From Bacteroidia bacterium (GTDB lineage: Bacteria; Bacteroidota; Bacteroidia; SpSt-205), in NCBI GenBank assembly GCA_025057135.1, contig JANWXY010000015.1, positions 1 through 34,827 of the forward strand: a stretch of DNA of 34,827 bases. Reading direction: 5' to 3'. Positions 2,316-34,672 of the stretch are shown piece after piece. Positions within the stretch are counted from its first letter, which is position 1. Every line of letters begins with the position of its first letter. The notes below the pieces were generated by a model that worked only from the letters and a program-made list of their open reading frames with translations, did not search any database and was not told the origin of the DNA. The translations under genes and the position numbers were made by a program.

Positions 2316-2380
2316 GCACTTAAAAAAGAGATTGAACCGTTTTACCAGCTATGGGAGGCATTTTTTATGTAGCGAAATAG

Positions 2381-2452
2381 AGCCCCCTGACGGATTTGAA
2401 CCGCCGACCTACTGATTACAAATCAGTTGCTCTACCGCTGAGCTAAGGGGGC
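2381..2452 (-). tRNA. tRNA-Thr (anticodon UGU)
   Basis: On the minus strand a 72-nt cloverleaf folds with a 7-bp acceptor stem (GCCCCCT with AGGGGGC) and a D arm containing TTAGCTCAGCGGTAGAG. The anticodon arm is ACTGA-TTTGTAA-TCAGT, with TGT as anticodon, and the T arm contains GGTTCGAATCC. No CCA is encoded, so the tail must be added by the CCA enzyme. It begins 23 nt after the rplQ stop and has its own -7-like element. Confidence 0.96.
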
Positions 2453-2461
2453 GCGAGAGTG

Positions 2462-2469
2462 CAAAGCTA
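2462..2469 (-). promoter_or_regulatory. Putative -7 promoter element for tRNA-Thr
   Basis: TAGCTTTG on the minus strand matches the Bacteroidota -7 consensus TAnnTTTG. It lies between the rplQ stop and the tRNA, 9 nt before the tRNA 5' end, which places the start of transcription about 5 nt before the mature tRNA. No TTG is seen at the -33 position. The tRNA could also be released from the r-protein transcript. Confidence 0.5.
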
Positions 2470-19558: not shown

Positions 19559-19980
19559 TTTTTACCTCCTTTTTGTGGGGCTCCTTTGCCAGCTGGAGCT
19601 GCAGCTCCCTTCTTGGGTCGCTTAGCCCCGTACAGCGAACGCCCTTGCCGACGCTTATCTACGCCTGCACATTCCAGAGCTCCGCGTACAATATGATAGC
19701 GCACACCCGGTAGGTCCTTCACCCGTCCACCCCGCACGAGAACAACAGAGTGTTCTTGAAGGTTATGCCCTTCCCCTGGAATGTAGGCGATAATCTCGTA
19801 TCCACTTGTCAGACGAACTTTAGCCACTTTCCGAAGAGCAGAGTTAGGCTTTTTCGGAGTGGTAGTATAGACTTTGGTACAGGTTCCACGACGCTGAGGA
19901 CAAGCCACCAACGCTGGGGACTTACTTTTATAGGGCTTGGGCTTGCGCCCATGCCGTATGAGCTGCTGTATCGTAGGCAT
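19555..19980 (-). CDS. rpsL: 30S ribosomal protein S12 (uS12)
   Basis: S12 is the decoding-centre protein. Both functional loops are intact: [20 protein letters not shown], with wild-type lysines at the streptomycin-linked positions, and [15 protein letters not shown], with the Asp that is methylthiolated in many bacteria. The 141-aa length includes a Gly/Lys/Ala-rich tail ([10 protein letters not shown]). It is the first gene of the 33-gene operon. Its ATG lies only 11 nt after a TACCTTTG promoter element, so the mRNA leader is a few nt long. Confidence 0.98.
19564..19572 (-). promoter_or_regulatory. Strong Shine-Dalgarno sequence of rpsG inside rpsL
   Basis: AAAGGAGGT on the minus strand is nearly a full complement of the 16S anti-Shine-Dalgarno and lies 5 nt before the rpsG ATG. 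It also encodes the K-G-G end of S12, so coincidence is possible. The starts of neighbouring r-protein genes show no such site, in line with the weak use of Shine-Dalgarno pairing in Bacteroidota. Confidence 0.6.
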
Positions 19981-19991
19981 ACGACGGCGGG

Positions 19992-19999
19992 CAAAGGTA
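19992..19999 (-). promoter_or_regulatory. -7 promoter element of the r-protein operon
   Basis: TACCTTTG (followed by C) on the minus strand is an exact TAnnTTTG element. A TTG lies 21 nt upstream, at the right distance for the -33 element, making this the most complete promoter in the window. The G is 11 nt from the rpsL ATG, so the predicted mRNA has a leader of about 5-8 nt. The remaining ~130 bp up to the divergent PAS-PP2C gene shows no other clear signal. Confidence 0.8.
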
Positions 20000-20127
20000 G
20001 AAAATCTTCTTCACATCATACAAGCCCAATACTCTTGAAAGCCTCCATGATGTCCCTTAGAAAGAGGGGATAGGATTTGCGTGAGAGTGGCATCCCCATG
20101 TAAGCCTCAGTTTTTGTTATATACGAC

Positions 20128-21762
20128 ATGCCGAATATCTGGAATCAAATTTGGTCGGCACGCCATAGCGAGAAAACTCAAAGTCAAAGCGATACTTTAT
20201 TCAGCAAAATTGCAAACTCTTTTCCCGCCCCCATTTTCGTCATTGATGGGAAGGAAGACAAGTTTATCTGGATAAGTCCAGGCGCATCTTGGCTTACAGG
20301 TTTATCCACTGATGAGATTGCTCTGATTAGAGCGACAGATTACTTAGAAGCCAAGTTTAGTCCCAAAGACACTCTGCTACAACTCATAAAAGAGCGGATC
20401 AAGCAAGCGGAGGTCAGCCTGAACTACGACGATCATATCAAAACCCTACATATGCTCGGTTACTGGATGGAGCTTGAACCGCACCTTTATGTTCTCATAT
20501 TGCAGGATGTAACCGAGCTCAGGGAGGCTCAAAATGAACTCGCTCAATACTCCGAAGAGCTTCGTCAGCAAGTAGATGCCCTAACAGAGCTCCAAGAGTC
20601 TCTCAAAATCACCAATCAGAAACTTGCCGAAAGTCAAGAGCGACTTCGTCTGTTAGCAGCCGTGGCCTCCTACACAGATAACGCTGTGATCATCACAGAC
20701 GCCCAAGGACGGGCCCTTTGGGTAAATCGCGGCTTTGAGCGCATCTCCGGATATACTTTAGACGATGTACGAGGTAAAATCCCTGGTCACCTTCTACAAG
20801 GACCCGATACTGACAAGGCTACTGTGGCACGCATCCGAGAAAAGCTTCGTCAGAAAACCCCTTTTGTTGAAGAAATACTCAACTACAGCAAAGATGGACG
20901 CCCTTACTGGATCCGACTTTACATAACCCCCCTGACGAATGAACTGAATGAAATAACAAACTTCGTCGCCATAGAGCTGGACATCACAGAAGAAAAAGCC
21001 CGGCTCCAAGCGATGGAACGTCAGTTAGAAGATATTCGTCAAGCTCAGCAGTATGCCGCTCGGATATTCAAGCGGTTTCTTCCCGATATACAAGGATTGC
21101 GGTCTTACTTCAAGGAAGTAGAAATGTGGAATGCGCCCATGCAGGGCCTGGGCGGAGACTTTTACTTTTTTGCCCCTCAAGAGGGACAAGTCATAATCGC
21201 CCTCGGAGATAGCACGGGACATGGCGCTGCCGCCGCCCTGATTAGCGCGTACGCACTTACTTCTCTATGGCGAAGTACCCGAAATCAAGTAAATGACCTA
21301 ATCAGCATGTATCATGACCTGATGGAGGGCATACTGCTTAGCTCGGAGCAGGAGGCATATACGGAGGGGTTTGAGCTCGCGCTCTTACGGTACGACATGA
21401 CTACTTCTCGCTTGGAGTATTTGGGAGCTAAACGACCTCTATGGATATTCCGAGCTGGACAACTGATTGAGCTACGAGGAGCTCGCAGTGATGTGAATGC
21501 CGGTAGCATCCACATGCAGCCAGAGGTCCAGACGCTTCATTTACAGCGCGGCGACAGGCTCTACCTTTTTTCAGACGGCATGACTAGCCAGCTCAATCAA
21601 GAAGGTAAAAAGTTCGGGGCCCAACGCCTGCGGAATTTCCTCCAAGTCAATCAATACCTTTCTATACCAGAGCAGATTGCCTTTCTAAAACAAGCTATTG
21701 AACAGTGGCGAGGAGGGACACCTCAGACTGATGATATCCTGATAGTGGGAATAGAGGCGTAG
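20128..21762 (+). CDS. PAS-PAS-PP2C (SpoIIE-type) sensor phosphatase
   Basis: This 544-aa protein is predicted to dephosphorylate a Ser/Thr-phosphorylated regulator, typically an anti-sigma antagonist. A first PAS domain covers about residues 28-120 (APIFVIDGKEDKFIWISPG). A coiled coil follows at about 125-172, then a second PAS at about 175-290 (ALWVNRGFERISGYTLDDV, then GHLLQGPDTD). The PP2C domain fills 300-544 with metal-binding motifs GGDFYFF, GDSTGHG, FSDGM and QTDDILIV, all acidic residues present. The second PAS resembles LOV but lacks the flavin-binding Cys. No membrane segment is seen. It is divergent from rpsL; no exact TAnnTTTG precedes it. No partner kinase is in the window. Confidence 0.88.
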   Translation: MPNIWNQIWSARHSEKTQSQSDTLFSKIANSFPAPIFVIDGKEDKFIWISPGASWLTGLSTDEIALIRATDYLEAKFSPKDTLLQLIKERIKQAEVSLNYDDHIKTLHMLGYWMELEPHLYVLILQDVTELREAQNELAQYSEELRQQVDALTELQESLKITNQKLAESQERLRLLAAVASYTDNAVIITDAQGRALWVNRGFERISGYTLDDVRGKIPGHLLQGPDTDKATVARIREKLRQKTPFVEEILNYSKDGRPYWIRLYITPLTNELNEITNFVAIELDITEEKARLQAMERQLEDIRQAQQYAARIFKRFLPDIQGLRSYFKEVEMWNAPMQGLGGDFYFFAPQEGQVIIALGDSTGHGAAAALISAYALTSLWRSTRNQVNDLISMYHDLMEGILLSSEQEAYTEGFELALLRYDMTTSRLEYLGAKRPLWIFRAGQLIELRGARSDVNAGSIHMQPEVQTLHLQRGDRLYLFSDGMTSQLNQEGKKFGAQRLRNFLQVNQYLSIPEQIAFLKQAIEQWRGGTPQTDDILIVGIEA

Positions 21763-21908
21763 GAAGTGTGCAAGATACATGCCTTGTGATTACTGGACCA
21801 AAACCTAACAGCCCTTGGACCTTAGCTATAAGGGAATGTAGGGCATAGTTGCTCTGACCTGCGATTTTGAGGCGACGGCAGAGAGCCTCCGAAGCAAGGT
21901 TTGAGGCA

Positions 21909-21916
21909 TATTTTTG
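21909..21916 (+). promoter_or_regulatory. -7 promoter element of the SulP transporter gene
   Basis: TATTTTTG matches TAnnTTTG and its last G lies 6 nt before the ATG at 21923. This predicts an almost leaderless mRNA and supports the ATG over the TTG at 21914, which lies inside the element. The GGAGG between them is too close to the ATG (2 nt) to act as a normal Shine-Dalgarno site. Confidence 0.65.
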
Positions 21917-21922
21917 GAGGAG

Positions 21923-23449
21923 ATGAAGCCTTCTCGTTTTAGCAAGGCTACTTTGCGTCGTTTGATTATACTGCGGCGAGATGCTACGGCCGGCCTGGTA
22001 GTTGCCTTGGTTGCCCTGCCGCTCTGCATCGGGATAGCGATTGCTTCTGACCTTCCACCCTCGGCTGGCTTACTCGGAGGAATTATTGGGGGTCTGGTCG
22101 TACCCATAGTGAGCCGCTCTCCTTTGGGGATTTCGGCACCCGCAGCAGGGCTGATCGTTTTAGTGAGCAATGCCGTCCATGAGCTTAGCCCGAGCGAGTT
22201 TACCCTTAGTGTAGTGATAGCTGGAGCGACTCAGCTCATACTGGGACTTCTACGGGGACACACCATAAGTCATTTCATTCCTACACCTGTGATATATGGC
22301 ATGCTTGCTGGTATCGGTGGGATAGTCCTTCTCAAGCAGGCTCCGCAGGTTCTCGGTGTTATTCAAACTTCTGTATCCGAGGGTCTCACAGCCCCCTTGC
22401 CTTTTGGAAAGGGTACTATATATATCGGCGCAGCCCTGATCGGTCTTTTTAGTTTAGCTGTTTTGATATGCTGGGAGACCTTCCCGCTTCTGAAAAAAAT
22501 AGGTAAATGGCTCCCGGGCCCCTTGATAGCTGTCTTACTGAGTGTGGGATTAGCTTTGGCGTTTTCGGTACTATTTCCGGCGCTGAACCTCCCTGCTTCT
22601 ATGAGTGTCTCTTTACCCGATGGTGGAATGCAGCTTCATTTCGCTCCGCTCAGGTGGGAAAGCAACATTCCTCTGGCATCATTCAAACACGGCGTCCTGA
22701 TAGGAATAGTCGCAGCTGTGGAAACGCTCCTCTCCGCAGAAGCCATCTCCAAGTTAGACCCGCTGGGACGACCAACTCCAAAACGCCGTGAGCTTTTTGC
22801 GCAAGGAGTGGGGAATATCACCGCTGGCCTCATAGGCGCCATGCCGATTGCTCAAGTTATAATCCGCAGCAGTACAGCCATACAAGCGGGGGGATATAGC
22901 CGCTTCACTGCTTTCTTTGACGGATTTTTCTTAAGCATTTTCTCTTTCCTCCTGGCATCTCAGCTGAAATACATTCCCTTGGCAAGCATCGGTGCTGTAC
23001 TCACATTTGTGGGCTATAAACTGATAAGGCCAGCTATTTTCCGACGATTTTATGAAAGGGGCTTCACTAGTCAGTTCCTTCCTTTTATCCTCACGCTTCT
23101 GGGTGTAGTATTTATAGACCTTCTCAGCGGAGTCCTCATGGGATTGGCTCTGAGTGTCTTCATCTCCCTCTGGAAAAGCTACGGTCATAAAAGCCTCCTT
23201 ACTCTGACGGGAGAAAATGATGGCAGATATATCCTCTACATCTCTGGCAACCTAACCTTTTTACACAAAGAGCAGCTCCTCAGACAGCTATCCCGAGTAC
23301 CTCCGCAAGCATACTTGAATATAGACCTGCGGGAGCTGAAGTACGCGGATGCCGATGTAAGCGATATACTCGCAGACTTTCAACGAGAGGCGGCACGCAA
23401 AAAGATCAGTATAACTATCCTACCGCCTCAGCAGAAAACTGACAAATGA
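21923..23449 (+). CDS. SulP/SLC26-family anion transporter with C-terminal STAS domain
   Basis: This inner-membrane transporter (about 508 aa) probably carries bicarbonate or sulfate; the substrate cannot be read from sequence. The family start of the transport core is clear: RRDATAGLVVALVALPLCIG, SDLPPSAGLLGGIIGGLVVP and SPLGISAPAAGLIVLVSNAV, followed by repeated hydrophobic segments up to about residue 415. A STAS domain occupies about 425-505 (LYISGNLTFLHKEQLLRQL, then NIDLRELKYADADVSDIL). The SpoIIAA phospho-Ser position appears replaced (YADADV). The start is set at the second in-frame codon candidate by the promoter. No carbonic anhydrase gene adjoins it. Confidence 0.9.
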   Translation: MKPSRFSKATLRRLIILRRDATAGLVVALVALPLCIGIAIASDLPPSAGLLGGIIGGLVVPIVSRSPLGISAPAAGLIVLVSNAVHELSPSEFTLSVVIAGATQLILGLLRGHTISHFIPTPVIYGMLAGIGGIVLLKQAPQVLGVIQTSVSEGLTAPLPFGKGTIYIGAALIGLFSLAVLICWETFPLLKKIGKWLPGPLIAVLLSVGLALAFSVLFPALNLPASMSVSLPDGGMQLHFAPLRWESNIPLASFKHGVLIGIVAAVETLLSAEAISKLDPLGRPTPKRRELFAQGVGNITAGLIGAMPIAQVIIRSSTAIQAGGYSRFTAFFDGFFLSIFSFLLASQLKYIPLASIGAVLTFVGYKLIRPAIFRRFYERGFTSQFLPFILTLLGVVFIDLLSGVLMGLALSVFISLWKSYGHKSLLTLTGENDGRYILYISGNLTFLHKEQLLRQLSRVPPQAYLNIDLRELKYADADVSDILADFQREAARKKISITILPPQQKTDK

Positions 23450-23558
23450 GAGGCTAATATACCCCCAAGAATCAGCCTACAAGCCCCAAGCAGTCAAACC
23501 GCTACTCAGGCGATCACTATAAAGTTGCGCATTCCGACGGGATACGCAGATTTTCCGC

Positions 23559-23566
23559 TAAGTTTG
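23559..23566 (+). promoter_or_regulatory. -7 promoter element of the ppiD-like gene
   Basis: TAAGTTTG (followed by C) is an exact TAnnTTTG match, with the final G 7 nt before the ATG at 23574. No TTG is found at the expected -33 distance. The rest of the 124-bp spacer after the SulP gene shows no terminator or other element. Confidence 0.65.
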
Positions 23567-23573
23567 CGCTGGC

Positions 23574-25655
23574 ATGGCTGGTGTCATACAAAAAATTCGG
23601 GATAAGGCAGGGTTGGCAGTCTTGCTGATCGGTGTCTCGCTGCTGATTTTCATTTTGACAGACCTGCTCCAGAGCAATGCCTTCATTCGAGAAGCGATAT
23701 GGGGAAGTAGCGATGTAGTGGCTCGTATCGGAAAGATGGAGATTCGGTACGCGGAGTACAATGAGCTATATGAGAGAGCCAAACGAAATCAAGGCGACAT
23801 CAACGACCCTTTTGCAGAAGAGCAGATTCGCAGCGCTGTGTGGCAACAGCTTTTGTCTGACAGACTATATGAACAAGAAGCCGAAATGGCTGGTCTTCAA
23901 GTCTCCAACGCAGAAGTCTATGATATGTTCGTCTCCGACAATCCCCATCCGCTGGTGATGCAAGTTTTTTCTCAAGGAGGACAGACTTATGACAAAGAAC
24001 GAGTGAAACAAATCCTGAGCCAGGCGGAGAGCAATCCCGAGATTGCCCGTCAAGTGCGAGAGTTTGAAGACTATCTCGTCCAGACCCGCCTAAGAGAAAA
24101 GTACGATGCCTTGCTGAAAGCTGCCGCATACGTACCCGTACCCCTGGCCACTTACCAAAATAGCCTGGAAAATACCACTTTGAACTTCTCTTACTTAGCT
24201 GTGAGCTACAGCGCAGTGGCTGACTCGCTATTCAGTGTTTCCGAAGGCGATATAAAGCGATACTACAATGAACACAAGGGGGAATACTTGATTCGGGAGC
24301 CTGAGCGTACCTTGCGTTACGTGGTCATCTTCAAAGAGCCCTCCAAATCCGATAGTGAAGCCGTATTTCAGCGCATTCTGGCTCTAAAAGAACCTTTTGA
24401 GAAGACGAAGGAAGACTCCATTTTCGCTGCGGGAAATAGCGATTTTCCCATAGACTACTCATACAAGCGCTGGCCTGACCTTCCTAATGAACTGCGCGAC
24501 TCTATAAGGTTCGCTGGGCAAGTCATCGGTCCTTACATGACGGATCAAGGATACGCTTTAGCCAAAGTAGATACTATCGTCAAAGACACTCAGCCAGTGT
24601 ATCGCCTGCGCCATATTATGATAGGCAAAGGGCTTGACAGTGTCGCAGCACGCAAACGGGCAGACAGTCTGTACAGAGCCTTGCGTCCTGAGAAGTTTGC
24701 TGAGGCTGCCAATCAGTTTTCCGAAGACTGGCAAACTAAGTTTTCCAGTGGAGAGCTCGGCTGGTATACGGCTACGGGACGGTTTGGCAGTGGATTTTAT
24801 GAGGCTTTATCTAAAGCTCCTGTTGGACGGATTTATGGAGTGATAGCTTCTGACCAAGGCTACCACATCGTAGAAGTCCAGGAAAAAGAAGACAGGAAAG
24901 CCCGTATAGCCGTGATAGTGAAAGAAATCATCCCCAGTAGTCAAACTATATCTCAGTTACGGCAAAAAGCCCAGCAAGTCGCACGCGAGGCGAAAACTAG
25001 CTTAGATGATGCTGCTCAAAAAGTAGGCTTAAGCCCGCGAGTCAGTCCTACCATTCGTCCATCATCCCCCACGATTCCAGCTCTGGCGGGCGCACGAGAA
25101 GTGATTCAATGGGCATTTGAGCATGAAGCCGGCGAAATATCTGGTGTCTTAGAGACCTCTAATGCCTTCGTGATAGCCCAGATATTGTCTGCTGCAGAAC
25201 CGCCTTACCGAAGTTGGGAATCTGTTCGCGACCAAATAGAGCCTAAAGCACGAAATCAACTCAAAGCAGAATACATCCGCCGACGCATAGAAAATCAAAT
25301 CAGCTCCTTAGAACAGGCACGACAGGCTTATGGACCAGGAGCATATGTGAATAAAGCCGAAAATACATTGTACGGCGGCATGGCTGTGCCTGGTATGGGC
25401 ATGGAGCCGAAAGTGCTCGGCGTTGCCGCCGGGCTCCAACCTAATCAGCTCAGCTCAATCATAGAGGGAACTAATGGCGTGTATGTACTTCAGCTTGTGG
25501 AGAAAAAGTCCCCAGACCCCGTCACCGAAGAGGCAGCCCGTTCGTATGCAACTGGTCAGACCAATACCCAAGCTAACCTCCTCAGCGGCCGCTTCATAGA
25601 AGCCCAGAAAGAACGATTGGGTATAGAAGATAGACGGTATCGGTTCGGCTTTTGA
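23574..25655 (+). CDS. PpiD/SurA-like periplasmic peptidyl-prolyl isomerase, membrane-anchored
   Basis: This 693-aa foldase is anchored by one N-terminal helix (about residues 13-31, AGLAVLLIGVSLLIFILTD) preceded by MAGVIQKIRDK, the usual Bacteroidota PpiD start. A SurA-N-like chaperone region follows (EEQIRSAVWQQLLSDRLYEQ). A parvulin domain lies at about 343-442 (YRLRHIMIGKGLDSVAARKR, then SGELGWYTATGRFG and DQGYHIVEVQEKED). A second, poorly conserved rotamase-like region is possible near 500-640. It probably helps outer-membrane and secreted proteins fold after Sec export. The next gene's TTG overlaps its stop. Confidence 0.87.
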   Translation: MAGVIQKIRDKAGLAVLLIGVSLLIFILTDLLQSNAFIREAIWGSSDVVARIGKMEIRYAEYNELYERAKRNQGDINDPFAEEQIRSAVWQQLLSDRLYEQEAEMAGLQVSNAEVYDMFVSDNPHPLVMQVFSQGGQTYDKERVKQILSQAESNPEIARQVREFEDYLVQTRLREKYDALLKAAAYVPVPLATYQNSLENTTLNFSYLAVSYSAVADSLFSVSEGDIKRYYNEHKGEYLIREPERTLRYVVIFKEPSKSDSEAVFQRILALKEPFEKTKEDSIFAAGNSDFPIDYSYKRWPDLPNELRDSIRFAGQVIGPYMTDQGYALAKVDTIVKDTQPVYRLRHIMIGKGLDSVAARKRADSLYRALRPEKFAEAANQFSEDWQTKFSSGELGWYTATGRFGSGFYEALSKAPVGRIYGVIASDQGYHIVEVQEKEDRKARIAVIVKEIIPSSQTISQLRQKAQQVAREAKTSLDDAAQKVGLSPRVSPTIRPSSPTIPALAGAREVIQWAFEHEAGEISGVLETSNAFVIAQILSAAEPPYRSWESVRDQIEPKARNQLKAEYIRRRIENQISSLEQARQAYGPGAYVNKAENTLYGGMAVPGMGMEPKVLGVAAGLQPNQLSSIIEGTNGVYVLQLVEKKSPDPVTEEAARSYATGQTNTQANLLSGRFIEAQKERLGIEDRRYRFGF

Positions 25656-26860
25656 GGATAGTCAGCGGGGTCATTATAGGCGCAGCTCTCATAGGGATAC
25701 TATTTCTCCCAGCCGGCACGCCGGCTCTGGAAGCCTCTTATACTCTGACCGCTGATCGGCTGTCGCAAGGCTATAAGTTATACGCTGAACTGCAGGTCCC
25801 TCTGGACGTTGGCTTTACTTACCTGTACAAAGCCCTAAATGAAGGGGGCACCTTCGCTCTCCGTATATGGAAGCTTTTTGGGGGGATAGCTCTACTACTT
25901 TTTCTTATACAGAGCCGCTCGCGTCTGTTGGACACGCCATATACTTTCCTCTTGCAAGCCATCGCCGTAGCTTTATATCTACTCTACCCCTGGCAGAATA
26001 GCTTTTCTGTGGGCGAACCGCTCCTCTGGATGCTCATCCTGCTAAACTATCAGGCATCCTATCCTTTTGAACGGGGAGCGCTCACAGGTCTCGGCATAAT
26101 CTTATTTCCCGCAGGGGCTCTGGCAGGGGTATGGACAATGTATCGCCGATTAGAGGAAAAAAATCTGCGTGCTCTGCTTATATGGGGTTTAGGCGTAGCA
26201 TGGAGCATACTCGGCGGAGTAGCATTCCTTAGGCTTCAAGGACAGCTTCATGCGTATGCGCTTGATTTCTGGCTATCCAGCTGGCAAGATACCGGCCCTC
26301 CGAAGAAGTGGGAATGGCTCCTGCGGGGCACCGCAGTTTTCCTTCTTATTCTCATCGGTCAAGCTTATTTTCGGAGTCCTTATGCGGAAAGGCGCCTTTT
26401 TCGTGACCGACTATGGGCAGGCATCGTAGCTGTACCCAGTCCAGCCGCAATACCCTTATGGACAGCGCTCTTAGCAGAGCTTAGGACGCATGATCTGCCG
26501 CGATATATAGGGGTTACGCTATGTATGACCCAGATCATCCAGTGGACCGATGCAGTGCGCCATCGCTCGCTCTGCCAAATGACCCTACCATCTCAGAGCT
26601 GCTTATGGGGCGAACCGCCATGTTATATTCGGCTGATATCCCCTTATAGTTGTGACTGGAGCGTGCCCTTTCGCTGGAAAAAGCACCTCCAAAAGCCACA
26701 ATGGGAAATGTTTTACGAAAAATGGGGAACGCCTAAATACATACTTGATGCGAGCGGACTCTGGGCTGAGGCGCTTTATTACCTCCCGCACCTGAGCAGC
26801 CAATACGTTCTCCGAGACACCACAGGCTCATCGAACCTTCGCCTGTATCAGCGCCGATAG
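25652..26860 (+). CDS. Multi-pass membrane protein, possibly a degenerate GT-C glycosyltransferase
   Basis: I do not recognise this 402-aa protein with certainty. About eight hydrophobic segments lie between residues 4 and 280, followed by a soluble C-terminus of about 110 aa. The early stretch ASYTLTADRLSQGYKLYAEL resembles the first loop of GT39/ArnT-like enzymes, and the end (GTPKYILDA...LPHLSSQYVLRD) resembles their C-terminal domain. The catalytic D-E pair would align with L-E, so activity is doubtful. The TTG start overlaps the ppiD-like stop (TTGA), which suggests coupling. The 3' end overlaps the opposite-strand gene by 13 bp. Confidence 0.6.
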   Translation: MRIVSGVIIGAALIGILFLPAGTPALEASYTLTADRLSQGYKLYAELQVPLDVGFTYLYKALNEGGTFALRIWKLFGGIALLLFLIQSRSRLLDTPYTFLLQAIAVALYLLYPWQNSFSVGEPLLWMLILLNYQASYPFERGALTGLGIILFPAGALAGVWTMYRRLEEKNLRALLIWGLGVAWSILGGVAFLRLQGQLHAYALDFWLSSWQDTGPPKKWEWLLRGTAVFLLILIGQAYFRSPYAERRLFRDRLWAGIVAVPSPAAIPLWTALLAELRTHDLPRYIGVTLCMTQIIQWTDAVRHRSLCQMTLPSQSCLWGEPPCYIRLISPYSCDWSVPFRWKKHLQKPQWEMFYEKWGTPKYILDASGLWAEALYYLPHLSSQYVLRDTTGSSNLRLYQRR

Positions 26861-27498
26861 TCGTATCCCAAGATTTCATAGCCCTTAGGTATCTTGAGGC
26901 TCTCAGGGTCCAATCGCAGATGCTTTACCTTTGCAGCGGTAACCTCTATTACCATACCCTCCTGTTTGCGAATCATTTTGAGCGGAATAGCCCCATATAA
27001 TCCTTCATTTAGGAAAAAGGCCTGGGCACGCTTCTTTCCTGCGAAGAGACCGAGATCAACTCTGTACTTTGGACTGACGTAGTAAGTAATCTCTTCCTCT
27101 GGCTTTTTGACATAGAAAGCGTAGCACCATTCCCCCAAGATTTGCAGACTATCTCCTGCGTAAGTTGCTGGATAGTTGCGGGCTTTTCTTCGGTATTTTT
27201 CGTATTTGAAGACCCGCTTATTTGGGGGGTCGATAATATACACCCAATCAGAGTCGGGCTCATACAGCCGACTGATGGGAAAAGCTCCGCCTGTTTCATT
27301 GACCAGGAAACGATTCCGGTGGATATATAAATGCATTTCTGTGGGCGGCTCATTTTCTTTGAGAAGCTCAGCCTTGTCTCCCCGTACTTTTACTTTATAG
27401 ATGATGACCCCTTCAAACGGGGGCACAGGCGCCCGGAATGCTTCCCCCTGCGCCCAGAGCAGACTATTCCACAATGCGAATGCCCACCAGCGTCGCAT
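26848..27498 (-). CDS. Small secreted protein, DUF4412-like
   Basis: This 216-aa protein starts with a likely signal peptide (MRRWWAFALWNSLLWAQGEA). The mature part is rich in beta-strand-like sequence: FEGVIIYKVKVRGDKAELL, HLYIHRNRFLVNETGG, VYIIDPPNKRVFKYEKY and GYEILGYDYRR. The F-x-G-x-I-x-Y-K opening and the later strands recall the DUF4412 family of Bacteroidota periplasmic or surface proteins, an inference from memory. The ORF track extends 84 codons further, but that part lies in the phosphatase gene; the ATG at 27498 fits the signal peptide. It overlaps the phosphatase gene by 35 bp, so co-expression is likely. Confidence 0.65.
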   Translation of the reverse strand: MRRWWAFALWNSLLWAQGEAFRAPVPPFEGVIIYKVKVRGDKAELLKENEPPTEMHLYIHRNRFLVNETGGAFPISRLYEPDSDWVYIIDPPNKRVFKYEKYRRKARNYPATYAGDSLQILGEWCYAFYVKKPEEEITYYVSPKYRVDLGLFAGKKRAQAFFLNEGLYGAIPLKMIRKQEGMVIEVTAAKVKHLRLDPESLKIPKGYEILGYDYRR

Positions 27499-28738
27499 CG
27501 TCAGTCGGAGGAGTATCGCCCATCCATTCTCTTTTCCAGATATTGTTGAAGAGAGCACGCTGCCGAGCCATGCTTGGCTCATTCCATATCTGTAAAATCG
27601 TCTGTCGCAAGCGCGGCGTACCAAATCGCTTGTCGTTTGGCCCGCCAAACTGATCCGTGATTCCATCCGTGAAAAGGTACAATCTATCCTCCGCCTCAAG
27701 CTCCAGAGTAAAAACCTGAAACTCCACATCCTCGGCGAGCCTTTCGCCACCTATCGGTTGCTTATCGGTTTTGAACTCCTGAAGCTCACCGTTGCGCACG
27801 AGCCAAAGAGGACGATTGGCTCCAGCAAATTGCACTTCTGTCATGCCGTAGTCAAAACTACACAGGATGATATCCATCCCATCTTTGACCAAACGCCCCT
27901 CCTCAGCCTCTTCTTGGAGGAAGTATTCCCTCAGGCCCTTGTGCATTTCCATCAGTATCTGATGGGGAACTGTAATGCCTCGGTAAAGCACTATTTGATT
28001 GAGAAGGTTATAGCCGATGACGGTCAAAAGCCCGCCCGGAATGCCATGCCCTGTACAATCGGCCACAGCTAAAAAGGTTCGGTTCCCCATCGGAGACCGA
28101 GCGGTCCAGCAGAAGTCTCCACTGACGATGTCGCGCCCATTCGCCAGGAGAAAACTTTCAGGAAAAAACTTCCGCAGGGCATCTACACGGGTGGGAAATA
28201 TCGCCCGCTGAATGCGCCTCGCATACCGCAAGCCCTCCTCAAAGTCAGTTCTAAGTTGAATAAGCTGCTTTTCTGTCTCTAGTCTGTGAGTCGTGTCGTA
28301 GGCAAAGGCTAAGTACCGCTGAATACTTCCAGTAGCATCTGCAATAGGCAAGATGACCATATCTATCTCATACAGCTCGTAGTCCTTGCTACGATTCTTG
28401 ATACGCCCCCGCCATGGATTGCCCGAGGTGATGGTATTCCACAAATCTCGGAAGTATCCGGTTTCGTTGGCATCACTGCGAAGTATATTGATATTTTGCC
28501 CTAAAAGCTCGGCGGGTGTATATCCACCAAGCTGGGCGAAATCTTCATTGGTATAGGTGATGATACCCTGAGGGTCTGTCTCCACGATTAGGAGCTTGGG
28601 GTGGTAATCACGATGGAATTTATCCAAAGCTTCTATGAGGCGAAGCTGGGCTGGTGTAGGGGCAAGGTTAGGATATAAGCGTTGTACCTGCTCCCATAGG
28701 GGTGTAGGGAAGGTCACAGTATCAGAGGGCATACCCAT
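27464..28738 (-). CDS. PAS-PP2C (SpoIIE-type) sensor phosphatase
   Basis: This is a second predicted Ser/Thr phosphatase of about 424 aa. One PAS domain lies at about residues 48-160 (LIVETDPQGIITYTNEDFAQ, GYTPAELLGQNINILRSD). A short helix leads to the PP2C domain with IVSGDFCW, VADCTGHGIPGG, LFTDGITDQFGG and TPPTDDATLVGIRI, so the metal-binding Asp residues are present. It is soluble. The ORF track starts at 28804, but those codons are pheS; the ATG at 28738 (or 28732) overlaps the pheS end by 11-17 nt. Target and signal are unknown. Being in an operon with a tRNA synthetase gene is unusual. Confidence 0.87.
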   Translation of the reverse strand: MGMPSDTVTFPTPLWEQVQRLYPNLAPTPAQLRLIEALDKFHRDYHPKLLIVETDPQGIITYTNEDFAQLGGYTPAELLGQNINILRSDANETGYFRDLWNTITSGNPWRGRIKNRSKDYELYEIDMVILPIADATGSIQRYLAFAYDTTHRLETEKQLIQLRTDFEEGLRYARRIQRAIFPTRVDALRKFFPESFLLANGRDIVSGDFCWTARSPMGNRTFLAVADCTGHGIPGGLLTVIGYNLLNQIVLYRGITVPHQILMEMHKGLREYFLQEEAEEGRLVKDGMDIILCSFDYGMTEVQFAGANRPLWLVRNGELQEFKTDKQPIGGERLAEDVEFQVFTLELEAEDRLYLFTDGITDQFGGPNDKRFGTPRLRQTILQIWNEPSMARQRALFNNIWKREWMGDTPPTDDATLVGIRIVE

Positions 28739-29741
28739 AACCGCGAAAACTTTCCAGAAAAGAGATATTATTCTGACCGAAAAGGCGCAAGTCTGGAATG
28801 CCAAAAAGTAGCTGAGTGATGCGTTCTACGCCTAAGCCAAATGCAAATCCTCGGTACGCTTCTGGACTTATGCCGCAAGCAGTGAGCACATTAGGGTCCA
28901 CCATGCCACACCCGAGTACTTCTACCCAACCTGAGTACTTACACACCGGACATCCTTCTCCACCACATATGAGACAGCCGATATCTACCTCGGCACTCAT
29001 TTCAGTGAAAGGAAAATACGAAGCTCTCCAGCGCGTTCGAGTCTTTTCACCGAAAAAACTACGGATAAAGTACTCCAAAGTGGCTCGCAAATCAGCGGCA
29101 CTGACATGAGTATCTATGTACAGACCCTCTATCTGGTGAAAATACACATGAGCCCGCGCAGAAATAGTCTCGTGCCGATAAACACGCCCTGGCGCTAAAA
29201 TCCGTATAGGAGGACGCATAGCCTCCATTACCCTTACCTGCACCGTAGAGGTATGCGTACGCAGGAGACGACCCGCACTGGGATTGATGAAGAACGTATC
29301 CTGCATGTCCCGTGCGGGGTGATCTGGCTCAAAGTTTAGAGCGGTGAAGTTATGCCAATCATCTTCTATCTCTGGACCGTCAGCCAGCGAATAGCCCAAC
29401 CGCTGGAACAAACGAATAACCCGCTCCTCTACAATAGACAGAGGGTGGCGCCCTCCTGAACTTAGAGTTAGCCGAGGAAAAGTCGCATCGGTTGAAAGTG
29501 CCGTTGAGGGAGAGTTTTCCACAGAGCCAGCGACTTCTACGCGACCTTGAGCCAAGGCGCGTAAGCGATTAAGCTGAGTACCAAGCTCTTTTCGCTGCTC
29601 TTGGGGCAGACTGCGCAACTTCGCAAAGAGCTCATCCAGCACCCCGCCTTTTTTCAAGAACTTTTGCCGAAAACGCTGCTGAGCCTCAGGAGAGGAGAGA
29701 TCAGCCTCTACAATCTCGCGTTCAAGGGCGCTAATGTCCAT
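28722..29741 (-). CDS. pheS: Phenylalanyl-tRNA synthetase alpha subunit
   Basis: PheS forms, with PheT, the enzyme that charges tRNA-Phe. The 339-aa chain has an N-terminal coiled coil (about 1-85) and a class II catalytic core: FEPDHPARDMQDTFF, RTHTSTVQVRVME, GRVYRHETISARAHVYFHQI (motif 2) and FGLGVERITQLLFGIPDLR (motif 3). A Cys-rich insertion, CLICGGEGCPVCKYSGW, occurs in many bacterial PheS proteins and may bind zinc. pheT is not adjacent. The ATG lies 6 nt after a TATTTTTG element, so the transcript should be nearly leaderless. Confidence 0.97.
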   Translation of the reverse strand: MDISALEREIVEADLSSPEAQQRFRQKFLKKGGVLDELFAKLRSLPQEQRKELGTQLNRLRALAQGRVEVAGSVENSPSTALSTDATFPRLTLSSGGRHPLSIVEERVIRLFQRLGYSLADGPEIEDDWHNFTALNFEPDHPARDMQDTFFINPSAGRLLRTHTSTVQVRVMEAMRPPIRILAPGRVYRHETISARAHVYFHQIEGLYIDTHVSAADLRATLEYFIRSFFGEKTRTRWRASYFPFTEMSAEVDIGCLICGGEGCPVCKYSGWVEVLGCGMVDPNVLTACGISPEAYRGFAFGLGVERITQLLFGIPDLRLFGQNNISFLESFRGYGYAL

Positions 29742-29747
29742 TTAGAG

Positions 29748-29755
29748 CAAAAATA
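29748..29755 (-). promoter_or_regulatory. -7 promoter element of the pheS operon
   Basis: TATTTTTG (followed by C) on the minus strand is an exact TAnnTTTG match with its G 6 nt before the pheS ATG. It fills most of the 28-bp gap between pheS and the divergent dehydrogenase gene, so any -33 element must lie inside the dehydrogenase coding sequence. Confidence 0.65.
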
Positions 29756-29769
29756 CCAACTTGCGCCCT

Positions 29770-30807
29770 ATGCTGGCATGGAAACTGTACGAGCCGCTAC
29801 CACGCAATACTCAGCCTGGGGAAAACGTGTGGGAAAAAGTACTTAAGCTTGAAGAAGTAGAGCTACCTCCACTACCGCCAAACTATGCTCGTGTGAGACT
29901 GTATGCCGCCGCTCTCAATCGGAGAGACTTGTGGATAACTTTAGGGTTGTATCCAAATATCAAATGCCCTGCGGTGTTGGGGTCTGATGGTTGTGGAGAA
30001 GTAGTACAAGTCAGTACCCCCTCGCATAGAGAGGCATGGCTCGGAAAACGCGTCCTCATCAACCCCAGCCTCAACTGGGGTAGCAGCGAGCAGGTTCAAA
30101 GTGAGAACTATGAGATTCTTGGGATGCCTTCGTGGGGCACCATGGCAGAATATGTAGATGTACCAGTAGAAAACCTTCACCCGATACCTGAGCATTTATC
30201 GGTCGTAGAAGCAGCAGCGGTCCCCCTCGCTGGCTTAACCGCATATAGAGCTGTCTTTGTTCAGGGACAGCTGCAAGCTGGCGAAAAAGTACTCATTCCA
30301 GGCATCGGTGGGGGGGTAGCCCTCTGGGCATTACAGTTGGCTGTAGCTGCGGGAGCTGAGGTCTGGGTTACTTCCAGCTCCGAAAATAAGTTACAGACCG
30401 CTAAGCGTTTAGGAGCAGCCGGAGGGGTACTTTATACCCAGTCGGACTGGGCTGAGTATCTGTACCGAGAAACAGGTGGCTTCCATCTCATAGTAGATGG
30501 CGTTGGAGGCGATGTTTTTCCAGCATATCTGACCATATCACGGCCAGGGGCTCGTATCGTCGTGTACGGAGCGACTCGCGGCAATCCACCCAACATAGAC
30601 CTACGCCGCCTTTTTTGGAAACAACTCCACCTGATCGGCTCTACCATGGGAAGCCCTGCTAACTTCGCCGCGCTACTACAGTTTATCTCAGCCAACCGCA
30701 TACATCCTCTGGTAGAAACTATTCTCCCTTTCTCCGACCTACCAAAGGCCCTTTATCTACTCTGGACTGGACAACAGATAGGAAAGATTGTACTGAAATC
30801 GGAATAG
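29770..30807 (+). CDS. MDR-family dehydrogenase, quinone-reductase-like
   Basis: This 345-aa cytosolic oxidoreductase belongs to the medium-chain dehydrogenase/reductase superfamily. The N-terminal GroES-like domain has AALNRRDLWITLGLYPNIKC, LGSDGCGEVV and INPSLNWG. The nucleotide-binding Rossmann part has IPGIGGGVALWALQLAVAAG followed by GAEVWVTSSS, which favours NADPH. The catalytic-zinc GHE motif reads GSDGCGE and the structural-zinc Cys cluster is absent, so it is closer to zinc-free quinone or enone reductases than to true alcohol dehydrogenases. The ATG at 29770 is preferred to the TTG at 29761. Substrate unknown. Confidence 0.85.
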   Translation: MLAWKLYEPLPRNTQPGENVWEKVLKLEEVELPPLPPNYARVRLYAAALNRRDLWITLGLYPNIKCPAVLGSDGCGEVVQVSTPSHREAWLGKRVLINPSLNWGSSEQVQSENYEILGMPSWGTMAEYVDVPVENLHPIPEHLSVVEAAAVPLAGLTAYRAVFVQGQLQAGEKVLIPGIGGGVALWALQLAVAAGAEVWVTSSSENKLQTAKRLGAAGGVLYTQSDWAEYLYRETGGFHLIVDGVGGDVFPAYLTISRPGARIVVYGATRGNPPNIDLRRLFWKQLHLIGSTMGSPANFAALLQFISANRIHPLVETILPFSDLPKALYLLWTGQQIGKIVLKSE

Positions 30808-30833
30808 GCACCGCCTAATGCCCAAAAAACCTA

Positions 30834-30841
30834 TACCTTTG
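30834..30841 (+). promoter_or_regulatory. -7 promoter element of the T9SS cargo gene
   Basis: TACCTTTG matches TAnnTTTG exactly, with the G 6 nt before the ATG at 30848. The 40-bp spacer after the dehydrogenase gene holds no terminator. There is no TTG at the -33 distance. Confidence 0.65.
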
Positions 30842-30847
30842 TGAGGT

Positions 30848-31810
30848 ATGATTACACGGCTATTGGTTATCGGACTATTCGCAGGAGCTATCCTGCGAGC
30901 CCAGTGTGGCCTGTGCACAGTAAACAACACACTGCCACCACGCACATTTGATCCTCCCTTTCTCACTATTCAGGTCGGACAGGATACTGAAGTGGTAGTG
31001 CAGTTTGCGCTGCCAGAAACGGTTATGCAAGCAGGAGCGGCTCTATATCCCAATTACGCTATTTTCGTAGACAGCTTGTACATGATGGGAGGAAATACCT
31101 ATGTTTCTCTAAAAGGGCAACCCACCGTAGCTCCCGCCTACAACTCAGGCAATCCCGCCAATGGAGCTTTGCGATTTCATGAAGGGCATAGATATAAACA
31201 AGTCAAGGATAGCCCGCCGACTCACGCAAATGTAATAGTTTATCAAAACCCGGGAGGAAGCAGTCCTTCTAATCCTACTCCTCCACGCGGATGTGTGCGC
31301 GCCTGCATACGCGGTATAGCTCCTACCCCTACAGCTGACACTCTACGCATACTGATTAGAGGATTTATAGACCCTAATAGCATTAGTGCCACGTGGGTTC
31401 CGACTCCATCTATCACAGGGAATGATATCAACAATAAAGACACCTCCAATCTAATGCCCACATTGACTACTCCATTAGGTAATGTCGAATTATGGGCAGA
31501 TTCTTGGACAGAGTATGCTGTGCGTGTTGTAAATCCTGCAGCTACTGTGCAAGTAAGTGCTATTTCAGATTTGTTCATAGCTCCTAATCCTACACAAGGT
31601 GCCGCCGAGATACGCTACACTTTATCTCGTCCTGCGCATGCCTCTCTGCGCATATTCTCCGTAACTGGAGCTGAGATACTACAGCAATCCTTTGGAGTGC
31701 GTCCCGCAGGTGAGTCAAGTTATACTGCTATCCTTCCCGCAGGCGCTTATATTGTAGAGCTAAAAGCGGGGGATTCAGTTCTCCGTCAGCGACTTATAGT
31801 TTTACGCTGA
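30848..31810 (+). CDS. Secreted protein with C-terminal T9SS type A sorting domain
   Basis: This 320-aa protein has a signal peptide (MITRLLVIGLFAGAILRAQ) and a C-terminal type IX sorting domain at about 245-320: LFIAPNPTQGAAEIRYTLSR, then LRIFSVTGAEIL, LPAGAYIVELKAG and LRQRLIVLR. It is therefore predicted to cross the outer membrane through T9SS and be surface-anchored or released. The central 220 residues, with Cys pairs CGLC and CVRAC that could form disulfides, match no family I recognise and include a Pro/Ser/Asn-rich stretch near 130-145. It converges on pyrH, with a hairpin terminator between them. Confidence 0.88.
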   Translation: MITRLLVIGLFAGAILRAQCGLCTVNNTLPPRTFDPPFLTIQVGQDTEVVVQFALPETVMQAGAALYPNYAIFVDSLYMMGGNTYVSLKGQPTVAPAYNSGNPANGALRFHEGHRYKQVKDSPPTHANVIVYQNPGGSSPSNPTPPRGCVRACIRGIAPTPTADTLRILIRGFIDPNSISATWVPTPSITGNDINNKDTSNLMPTLTTPLGNVELWADSWTEYAVRVVNPAATVQVSAISDLFIAPNPTQGAAEIRYTLSRPAHASLRIFSVTGAEILQQSFGVRPAGESSYTAILPAGAYIVELKAGDSVLRQRLIVLR

Positions 31811-31837
31811 GCGAGGCTTGCTCTTCAAAAATAACCG

Positions 31838-31870
31838 AGTGCCTCCTGATACAGGAGGCACTTTTTATTT
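31838..31870. terminator. Strong intrinsic terminator, probably bidirectional
   Basis: An 11-bp stem (AGTGCCTCCTG with CAGGAGGCACT) and a 3-nt ATA loop are followed by TTTTATTTT on the plus strand. On the minus strand the same hairpin is followed by CGGTTATTTTT. It lies between the convergent T9SS cargo gene and pyrH and can end both transcripts. It is the only strong intrinsic terminator I found in the window. Confidence 0.93.
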
Positions 31871-31883
31871 TCCGACTTTACCC

Positions 31884-32591
31884 CTATGAAGTTACGAGAG
31901 TGCCGACACTTTCCCCTGCAACTATGCGATAGAGCGCATCCTCTTCGTTGATATTGAAGATAGCCATGGGGAGGTTATGCTCCTGAGAAAGTGTAAAAGC
32001 AGTCAGGTCCATCACTTCCAGTCGCCGGTCCAAAACTTCCTGATGAGATATACGCGTGAAGCGCTGCGCAGTAGCATCTTTCATAGGGTCTGCGGTATAG
32101 ATGCCATCCACTTTGGTACCCTTGAGAAGGAGCTCAGCCCCTATCTCTATAGCCCGAAGTGTCGCAGCCGTATCTGTGGTGAAAAAAGGATTCCCTGTAC
32201 CTGCGGCAAAGATCACCACTCGTCCTTTCTCCAAATGGCGTATAGCTCGCCGCCGAATGAACGGCTCACAGATTCGCTGCATCTCTATGGCAGATTGTAC
32301 TCGGGTAGGAACGCCTATCTGTTCCAGAGCGTTCTGGAGAGCAAGAGCATTGATGACAGTGGCTAACATCCCCATGTAATGGGCTTGTGCTTCATCTAAT
32401 CCCTGTTCTTTACCCTCAATTCCTCGGAAAATGTTTCCCCCGCCAATTACCACAGCTGTCTGCACACCAGCTCGGACGACCTTAGATATTTCCTCCGCAT
32501 AATAGCGCAGTTGAGCAGCATCTATGCCATACGGCTTATCGCCCATGAGAGCTTCTCCACTCAGCTTGAGGAGAATGCGCCGGTATCGCAT
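31884..32591 (-). CDS. pyrH: UMP kinase
   Basis: PyrH phosphorylates UMP to UDP in pyrimidine nucleotide synthesis and belongs to the amino-acid-kinase fold. The 235-aa protein begins [17 protein letters not shown] and shows [53 protein letters not shown] and [18 protein letters not shown], all typical. The ORF track starts with a GTG one codon earlier; the ATG shares one base with the tsf stop (TGATG), so the two genes are coupled. frr does not follow; the gene ends at the terminator. Confidence 0.97.
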
Positions 32592-33433
32592 CACTTCCCA
32601 CCGACTTGAATGCGGACAAAACCCAAAACGCTCAGCTTAGGCGATATGGATTTCAGGTACTGACCGACGCTTTTTTGACTATCCTTGAAGTACTCCTGCT
32701 CTAGAAGGACTACCTCCTTGAAAAACTTTTCCAGCTTGCCGACCGCAATCTTCTCTAAAATGGCTTCGGGTTTTCCTTCTGCGCGAGCCTGTTCGCGGGC
32801 GATTTCTTTCTCCTTCTCCAAGAGCTCATGAGGTACACTCTGGCGATCCACGCTTACAGGACGCAGTGCAGCAATCTGCATGGCGATATTCTGACCGACC
32901 TCTTCTAATACATCAGAAGAGACCCCTTCGGTACCTCCAAGCGCGACGAGCACACCTATTCTACCACCCAAATGAATATAAGCGGTCACATACTCCCCCT
33001 CTATGCGAGCCCAGCGGCTCACCTCCATCTTCTCGCCAATCTTAGCGGTCAGGTCAGCGAGGGAGTCTTTCAAAGAGACTCCATCTATGGATAGGGAAGG
33101 TAGCTCTTCGGCGCCACTGATGTGATTATGTAAAGCAGCATTGGCTATTTTTTGCCCAAATGCTTTGAACTCCTCATTTTTCGCTACAAAGTCAGTCTCA
33201 CAAGAAAGTAAAACAAGATGACCTTCGCCGCTTTGAACAGCGGCAAATACCGCTCCTTCCTTGGCGTCCCGCTCCTGACGGGCGGCAGCCATTTTATGTC
33301 CTTTTTTACGAAGGATTTCTATCGCAGTTTCAAAGTTTCCTTGGGCTTCTTCCAGTGCTTTTTTACAGTCCATGATACCTGCCCCCGTTGTTTCTCGGAG
33401 CTTTTTGACTTGATCTGCGGTGATAGCCGTCAT
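32591..33433 (-). CDS. tsf: Translation elongation factor Ts
   Basis: EF-Ts is the nucleotide exchange factor of EF-Tu. The 280-aa protein starts [20 protein letters not shown] followed by [19 protein letters not shown] (UBA-like domain). It contains the EF-Tu-contact motif [13 protein letters not shown] and ends with a core of two related halves. The ORF track starts 48 codons earlier; the ATG at 33433 is set by the family N-terminus and by a TAACTTTG promoter 5 nt upstream. rpsB, the usual upstream neighbour, is not here. Confidence 0.97.
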
Positions 33434-33438
33434 GCCTG

Positions 33439-33446
33439 CAAAGTTA
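33439..33446 (-). promoter_or_regulatory. -7 promoter element of the tsf-pyrH operon
   Basis: TAACTTTG (followed by C) on the minus strand is an exact TAnnTTTG match with the G 5 nt before the tsf ATG. It gives tsf its own promoter and explains its separation from rpsB. No TTG is seen at the -33 distance. Confidence 0.68.
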
Positions 33447-33581
33447 GCTCTTTGACTGAACGGCTCCGAGGTAGTTCTAAGAAAAGCCCTGAGGTGTCTA
33501 TCAGAGCGATTCGGAAGATTCTGAAAGGAGTTATAAATATGACTTTTCAAAGAAGCACGGCAGAAGCTTGCAGACATATTT

Positions 33582-33589
33582 TACATTTG
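33582..33589 (+). promoter_or_regulatory. -7 promoter element of the zinc-ribbon protein gene
   Basis: TACATTTG (followed by C) matches TAnnTTTG, with the G 6 nt before the ATG at 33596. This favours that start over the ATG at 33539, which has a good Shine-Dalgarno-like AAAGGAG but would put this element inside the gene. Confidence 0.6.
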
Positions 33590-33595
33590 CACCAG

Positions 33596-34672
33596 ATGAC
33601 TGACCTATTCACTATTCGCTGTGGAGGCTGCGGTGCTTCCGTAGTGTATGAGGCAGGGAGTGAAAAGCTTCGCTGCCCCTACTGCGGACACCAACAAGAA
33701 ATTCCCCTATCATATGAAGGTATAGAAGAAATAGACTTAGAGCATGCTCTCAAAGCCGCAGAGGCCCAAAGAGAAGCCATACCAGAACATCAGATACTAA
33801 GCTGTCGCAGCTGCGGCGCACAAATCGCCTATAAAGAAGGGCGAGCCAAGTGTGACTTTTGTGGAGCCGAAGCGGTAAGTGAAGGCACTCTTCAGAATCA
33901 GCCTATTCGTCCTCAGGGTGTGCTACCCTTTGGTATAGATGCTCGCGCTGCTCAAGAGACATTTACTCGATGGGTAAAAAATCTGTGGTTTGCCCCCTCT
34001 GACCTTAGCCATCGCACACGCCTTGAAGACTTACGGGGGATATATCTACCAAGCTGGACCTTTGACGCAAGGGTATGGGCACACTGGACAGCTACACCTG
34101 GCTATTACCGTACTCGTACAGAGCCATTTTTTGACCAGCAAACCCGTACATGGAAAACCCGTACGGTAACCTACACAGAATGGGGAGCTCCCATCTCTGG
34201 ACATCATCAAGATTTTTTTGACGATGTGCTTATTTCCGGGCTAAATAGCTTGCCTAACCGCTATTTAGAGGAGATTGGCAGCTTCGCTACGACCACAGAC
34301 CTGAGGACATATAATCCCTCATACTTTCTGGGGTGGGACGTAGCTCTGCCAGACAAACCGCTTCCAGAAGCATGGAAAGAGGGCTACGAATACATTCACG
34401 CTAAAACGGCCGAGGCTTGCAAAAAAGCTATCCCTGGGGATACTTACAAAGACTTTCGGATGCAGATTCAGCTTTCAGGTCTCACAACTAAGCTCGTGTA
34501 TGTTCCAATATACATCTTGGCTTACCGATACGGTGACAAGCCGTATCGTGTCGTTATACATGGCCGCACTGGCGCAGTCACAGGAGATCGTCCGATAAGC
34601 TGGGTCAAAGTAGGACTTGCAGTGCTACTGATAGCAGCTATTATAGGCTTACTGGCTTATCTCGCAAAGTAA
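33596..34672 (+). CDS. Two-zinc-ribbon protein with C-terminal membrane anchor
   Basis: This 358-aa protein starts with two zinc ribbons: IRCGGCGASVVYEAG with CPYCG (about residues 8-35), and LSCRSCGAQIAYKEG with CDFCG (about 65-90). A conserved region follows, with LPFGIDARAAQETFTRWVKN, LRGIYLPSWTFDARVWAHW, DDVLISGLNSLP and LVYVPIYILAYRYGDKPYRV. A single C-terminal helix (VGLAVLLIAAIIGLLAYLAK) ends the chain. Related proteins are widespread in bacteria and often mislabelled as helicase or PriA-like because of the ribbons; no helicase motif exists here. The bulk should face the cytoplasm. Function is unknown. Confidence 0.8.
   Translation: MTDLFTIRCGGCGASVVYEAGSEKLRCPYCGHQQEIPLSYEGIEEIDLEHALKAAEAQREAIPEHQILSCRSCGAQIAYKEGRAKCDFCGAEAVSEGTLQNQPIRPQGVLPFGIDARAAQETFTRWVKNLWFAPSDLSHRTRLEDLRGIYLPSWTFDARVWAHWTATPGYYRTRTEPFFDQQTRTWKTRTVTYTEWGAPISGHHQDFFDDVLISGLNSLPNRYLEEIGSFATTTDLRTYNPSYFLGWDVALPDKPLPEAWKEGYEYIHAKTAEACKKAIPGDTYKDFRMQIQLSGLTTKLVYVPIYILAYRYGDKPYRVVIHGRTGAVTGDRPISWVKVGLAVLLIAAIIGLLAYLAK

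Follow-up and report, generated by a model that had tools for sequence, protein, structure and literature searches.

Introduction

Leaderless initiation is known from Deinococcus, actinobacteria and archaea. In the Bacteroidota, translation does not rely on Shine-Dalgarno pairing. Mycobacteria retain genes with Shine-Dalgarno sequences beside their leaderless ones, a kind of gene not seen in the lineage studied here. The nearest analogue to the promoters described below is found in Deinococcus-Thermus, where a core promoter box likewise stands directly before the start codon in many genes, the -10 motif adjoining about 30% of open reading frames, and where GTG starts are used too (PMC12340547). 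That box, however, is of the sigma-70 type and coexists with a class of genes having a ribosome-binding site, whereas here we find the Bacteroidota -7 box and no Shine-Dalgarno signal. Mycobacteria and other actinobacteria likewise make many leaderless mRNAs, and a leaderless GUG start is accepted in M. smegmatis and Streptomyces (PMC4633059, PMC3898074, PMC9031893), but they belong to another phylum and use another promoter type.

In Bacteroidota, TAnnTTTG is the known -7 element of sigma-A (sigma-ABfr) promoters (PMC6847099, PMC7366714), and the distance measured from this element to the transcription start in F. johnsoniae is 4-5 nt (PMC6847099). The promoters of F. johnsoniae, B. thetaiotaomicron and F. 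psychrophilum share with those analysed here the same TAnnTTTG, the avoidance of G at its middle positions and the predicted 4-5 nt to the start (PMC6847099, PMC7366714, PMC9723704). In these species, however, most leaders measure at least 10 nt, with averages of 33-65 nt, and only a small fraction of mRNAs is leaderless, whereas in the lineage studied here leadered promoters are not detectable. Of the 5' UTRs of B. thetaiotaomicron, 3.7% are under 10 nt (PMC7366714), and the leaderless share in F. psychrophilum is 5.5% (PMC9723704). In F. johnsoniae, where 13% have leaders of at most 10 nt, leaderless mRNA was tested as an explanation for the lack of Shine-Dalgarno use and rejected (PMC6847099). 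In a survey of leaderless genes that considered Pribnow-like boxes only, a single one of 37 Bacteroidetes/Chlorobi genomes was positive, at 2.4% (PMC3160421).

Here we analyse a stretch of 34,827 nt, referred to as the window, from a Bacteroidia bacterium (SpSt-205; assembly GCA_025057135.1, contig JANWXY010000015.1, positions 1-34,827, forward strand). An earlier sequence-only reading had noticed TAnnTTTG close to seven of its start codons and had proposed that these are promoters giving nearly leaderless mRNAs.

Materials and methods

Distance histograms were made from stretches of the window's genome, first 269 kb and then 613 kb of 2.08 Mb, and counted TAnnTTTG followed by an ATG opening at least 80 codons. 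Spacings of 4, 5 and 20 nt were also counted as patterns over the whole 2.08-Mb genome. Gene calls were home-made, with starts taken from coding potential alone and blind to the motif, and a gene was classed as operon-internal when the gap before it was 15 nt or less. The wider comparison set comprised 73 other Bacteroidia genomes from about 54 families.

Results

The seven elements in the window

All seven exact TAnnTTTG elements were found upstream of the ATGs, at the spacings given by the sequence-only reading (11, 6, 7, 6, 6, 5 and 6 nt). On the minus strand, TACCTTTG (19992..19999) lies 11 nt from the ATG at 19980 of rpsL, the head of the str/S10 operon; TATTTTTG (29748..29755) lies 6 nt from the ATG of pheS at 29741, and TAACTTTG (33439..33446) 5 nt from the ATG of tsf at 33433. 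On the plus strand, TATTTTTG (21909..21916) precedes a SulP transporter gene by 6 nt (ATG 21923), TAAGTTTG (23559..23566) a ppiD/SurA-like gene by 7 nt (ATG 23574), TACCTTTG (30834..30841) a T9SS cargo gene by 6 nt (ATG 30848) and TACATTTG (33582..33589) the gene of a putative zinc-binding protein by 6 nt (ATG 33596). A non-coding gene has the same architecture: for tRNA-Thr (2380-2452, minus strand), TAGCTTTG (2462..2469, minus strand) is placed 9 nt upstream of the mature 5' end.

Most of the gene identities proposed earlier held. Pfam recognised S12, SulP/STAS, SurA_N/rotamase and EF-Ts, and PheS was identified by homology, its closest named relative being 55% identical in a search from which very near records may be left out. 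The other two identities are weaker: the T9SS cargo gene encodes a Por secretion tail that scored just under the Pfam cut-off, and a Pfam search with the 'zinc-ribbon' gene gave no match, a cysteine pattern being the sole hint that suggests its product binds zinc.

The clustering of the seven elements had been attributed to something other than chance because such an 8-mer should occur about once per 4,096 positions. This argument is not itself the evidence, since the window holds no unusual number of motifs (22, against 17.2 +/- 4.2 in shuffles; 13 of 100 shuffles reached 22). What is non-random is the placement: seven elements lie 3-11 nt before an ORF start, where about 0.77 were expected at the genome background (Poisson P = 1.6e-5). 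A fixed composite, TTG-19-TAnnTTTG-6-ATG, gave a single match and was dropped.

The window also holds two PAS-SpoIIE phosphatase genes recognised by Pfam, at 20128-21762 (plus strand) and 27464-28732 (minus strand). Near the start of the one at 20128-21762, which diverges from rpsL, no perfect element is present. Within the second gene, a perfect TAGTTTTG (27853-27860, minus strand) stands 8 nt before an in-frame ATG; it is either background or an internal leaderless start with a 126-aa product.

Distance to start codons across the genome

The genome-wide histogram of the distance from TAnnTTTG to start codons, which the sequence-only reading had named beforehand as a check, has a sharp peak that is strongest at 4-5 nt. 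In 613 kb, the counts before ATG at 4, 5, 6, 7, 8 and 9 nt were 46, 19, 12, 16, 9 and 6, against 1.7 per nt elsewhere, and nothing rose clearly above background at 13-60 nt upstream, where no leadered hump was seen. GTG starts showed a peak at exactly 4 nt (16 sites in 613 kb), and no comparable peak was found for TTG starts in the same stretches (1 at 4 nt, 4 at 5 nt). In 269 kb, none of seven rearranged motifs gave a distance peak. Over the whole 2.08-Mb genome, TAnnTTTG-N4-ATG occurs 187 times versus 23 times for the N20 spacing, and the 5-nt spacing 92 times versus 14 times for the reversed pattern. About two thirds of the genome's TAnnTTTG sites are not at starts, and forms such as TACCTTTG are favoured at those that are.

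The commonest one-mismatch form in this genome is TAnnTTCG. It was noticed in several divergent gaps, among them one at another locus (L113, 3625-3655), and includes a near-palindromic divergent pair, CGAAGGTA...TACCTTCG.

Transcription units, tRNA genes and anatomy of the box

Among 122 divergently oriented first genes, 34 had a perfect element at 3-9 nt and a further 35 matched five of the six fixed positions, versus 10 and 9, respectively, of 141 operon-internal genes, most of which are without the element. When nearby alternative starts were allowed, the element was found in 66% of the divergent first genes here and in 76% of those in a family genome, G008, against 12-16% in the null; co-directional genes with gaps of 16-60 nt had it in 52-57%. 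By these counts, at least half of the divergent first genes have the element, which marks transcription units and not start codons as such. About one third of the divergent first genes have no recognisable element; these may depend on other sigma factors, have weak boxes or be leadered.

Similarly, a perfect element was present 6-11 nt before the mature 5' end in seven of eight sampled tRNA genes, including the tRNA-Thr of the window, and in four of five tRNA genes of G008. A tRNA transcript must contain its own 5' end, so transcription has to start at most about 6 nt after the G of the element; an element at 6-11 nt before tRNA genes is thus a promoter starting within about 6 nt. In addition, at mRNA sites with a spacing of 6-9 nt, the fifth nucleotide after the G, the position of the transcription start in F. 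johnsoniae (PMC6847099), was a purine in 53 of 76 (baseline 0.47, P = 7e-5).

As in the known -7 element, G is avoided between the TA and the TTTG. Of the 203 leaderless sites, 12 have G at the second middle position, where it is rare, and 23 at the first, where it is uncommon. The known element has H at both positions, and all seven window elements are exact. The -33 element TTG/TTTG gave no peak at any offset in the 203 leaderless sites; it is likewise not evident in F. johnsoniae (PMC6847099), so that this box is weak as a criterion. No -33 box was thus found by which the sites at starts could be told from the others, and no AT-rich upstream region was detectable in the 203 sites.

Compact divergent gene pairs

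Of 61 divergent gene pairs here, 21 have less than 60 bp between their start codons; the share in other Bacteroidota is 6% (P = 3e-7). In 12 of 20 such tight pairs an element of five-of-six or better stands on both sides. An example of the back-to-back arrangement is CAT-gcct-CAAAGATA-gcggattatttt-TACCTTTG-gatga-GTG. Perfect back-to-back pairs were found 6 times in 613 kb here and 9 times in 220 kb of G008, with none in 1.33 Mb of other Bacteroidota. In the window, the start codons of pheS (minus strand) and of a zinc dehydrogenase gene (29770-30807, plus strand; Pfam) are separated by an intergenic region of 28 bp (29742..29769).

Conservation among relatives

The flanking DNA has diverged across the family, yet the elements of rpsL, tsf and pheS are kept. 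Several of the family genomes compared are incomplete; TACCTTTG was found at exactly 11 nt before rpsL in 11 of 11 genus genomes, and the element stands at 4-5 nt before tsf and at 5-8 nt before pheS in 12 of 12 family genomes each. The ppiD/SurA-like gene has an identical box and spacing in G008, and most orthologues of the T9SS cargo gene have a similar box near the start.

We also noticed that the spacer of rpsL (19981-19999; L194-L203) contains a conserved CCGTYRT-like sequence in 11 of 11 genus genomes, while the spacings of other genes vary. The predicted fixed mini-leader of 6-7 nt may have a role. Before pheS, a block, TTGGTATTTTTG (29742-29769; L175-L186), hardly varies among 12 genomes, and the TTGG half of this block may be part of a weak -7 box that faces the other way and serves the divergent dehydrogenase gene.

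In the sister family, represented by one genome, G001, the tsf element is placed at 21 nt and rpsL has no element; a 5-nt peak is nonetheless present in the sampled stretches. From this one sister genome, the shift to leaderless dominance seems to have taken place at or near the base of the window's family.

Comparison with other Bacteroidota

The ratio of 4-nt to 20-nt spacings is 8.1 here and 9.4 in G010, against a median of 1.31 and a maximum of 3.6 in the 73 other Bacteroidia. It stays below 2 in G020 and G064, two genomes with a low motif background, so low background alone is not the source of a high ratio. In the pooled named Bacteroidota, whose loci all flank pheS and come mostly from metagenome assemblies of lower GC, a sharp 4-nt peak stands beside a leadered hump; leaderless promoters thus occur widely as a minor class, and here they have become the main one that can be detected. 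The distribution between leaderless and leadered positions differs between this genome and the other Bacteroidota (Fisher P = 9e-7).

Family f41, genus g42 (G051, G090, G123), is another Bacteroidia lineage in which the element-to-ATG peak is very strong, and leadered promoters are kept there. The enrichment is less exclusive (in G051, 356 sites have the 4-nt spacing and 125 the 20-nt spacing), and the elements of family f41 tRNA genes are 22-25 nt upstream.

Translation signals

Shine-Dalgarno-like motifs occurred before 1-2% of genes versus 5% in a coding control, at or below background for first and internal genes. A Kozak-like A-rich start with A at -3, as in leadered Bacteroidota, was not found in the divergent first genes: the A fraction is 0.21 in -15..-1 and 0.22 at -3, against 0.36 and 0.38 in other Bacteroidota, a difference to which base composition contributes. 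A loss of S1 or bS21 can be dismissed as the cause, bS21 and an S1-like rpsA each being present in 12 of 13 genomes of the order. A search for the 3' end of 16S rRNA gave no SSU match in eight genomes, in which the SSU is presumably masked or missing.

Discussion

We interpret TAnnTTTG in these genomes as the -7 element of the housekeeping sigma factor, placed so that transcription would start on, or a few nucleotides before, the start codon. With 5' ends predicted from the position of the element, we put the probability of this interpretation at roughly 0.88. A promoter followed by a nearly leaderless mRNA, as the sequence-only reading had it, is supported by the peak at 4-7 nt with none at 13-60 nt, the tRNA genes, the scarcity of the element inside operons, its conservation and the purine at the predicted +1.

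Another possibility is the ordinary Bacteroidota mixture, in which leaderless genes are a minor class over-sampled by a strict consensus and most genes are leadered from weaker boxes. A sharp 4-nt peak does occur in other Bacteroidota and some first genes here are without the element. The leadered hump seen elsewhere is missing here, however (P = 9e-7), and the 4-nt/20-nt ratio is 8-9, whereas the 73 other genomes have a median of 1.3 and do not go above 3.6. The same compaction is apparent from signs that are motif-independent or non-coding, namely the closeness of divergent genes and the shortness of tRNA leaders. It seems very unlikely, then, that such a mixture accounts for the data.

An mRNA-borne ribosome-binding site of a non-Shine-Dalgarno kind, with transcription starting farther upstream, would fit the distance of the element from start codons, but we give it a slightly smaller chance still. 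tRNA genes have the element at a comparable distance, operon-internal genes need ribosomes equally and yet mostly do not have it, and its sequence matches the known sigma-A -7 element (PMC6847099, PMC7366714). The promoter might also be real and the start codons miscalled, true starts further downstream giving normal leaders; starts were called from sequence and some open reading frames offer several candidates. This we find the most improbable, because the N-termini of rpsL, tsf and pheS are conserved across the family right at the elements, the peak appears also in start calls blind to the motif, and tRNA genes, whose 5' ends are fixed, have the same architecture.

Under the preferred interpretation, that of a -7 element adjoining the start codon, most detectable promoters here should yield mRNAs predicted to have no or almost no leader, and the lineage reads as one with predominantly leaderless sigma-A promoters, transcript ends being deduced from the DNA. 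The interpretation proposed earlier needs some qualification. The spread of spacings from 4 to 9 nt, with 11 nt at rpsL, means that some predicted leaders are 1-7 nt long, that of rpsL being 6-7 nt. As to a distinct mode of initiation, leaderless initiation is already known, and it is its dominance in this lineage that is unusual.

RNA polymerase would start 4-5 nt after the G of the element, in most cases at the A or G that opens an ATG or GTG codon. The purine there would then be both the first transcribed nucleotide (+1) and the initial base of the start codon. This coincidence at the 4-nt spacing could explain the disuse of TTG. Ribosomes would begin at the leaderless 5' end, presumably as 70S or via IF2 and initiator tRNA, and operon-internal genes, mostly without the element, would presumably be reached by translational coupling.

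More tentatively, and at somewhat under even odds, the family could have nearly given up leadered mRNA altogether, its promoters shrunk to an 8-bp box fused to the start codon, divergent genes sharing about 30 bp, and ribosomes defaulting to a 5'-terminal AUG or GUG despite the presence of bS21 and an S1-like protein.

The effect of antibiotics that block leadered initiation may be different in such bacteria, as has been stated for leaderless mRNAs generally (PMC9581028). In such genomes the -7 box can be used to locate true start codons and transcription units exactly, and G001, in which the tsf element stands at 21 nt, allows the two sides of the transition to be compared. A lineage in which leaderless promoters are the main detectable class would change the generalisation, drawn from Bacteroidota transcript maps, that leaderless mRNAs are few in this phylum, and it would provide a natural system for what a ribosome needs to live on leaderless messages.
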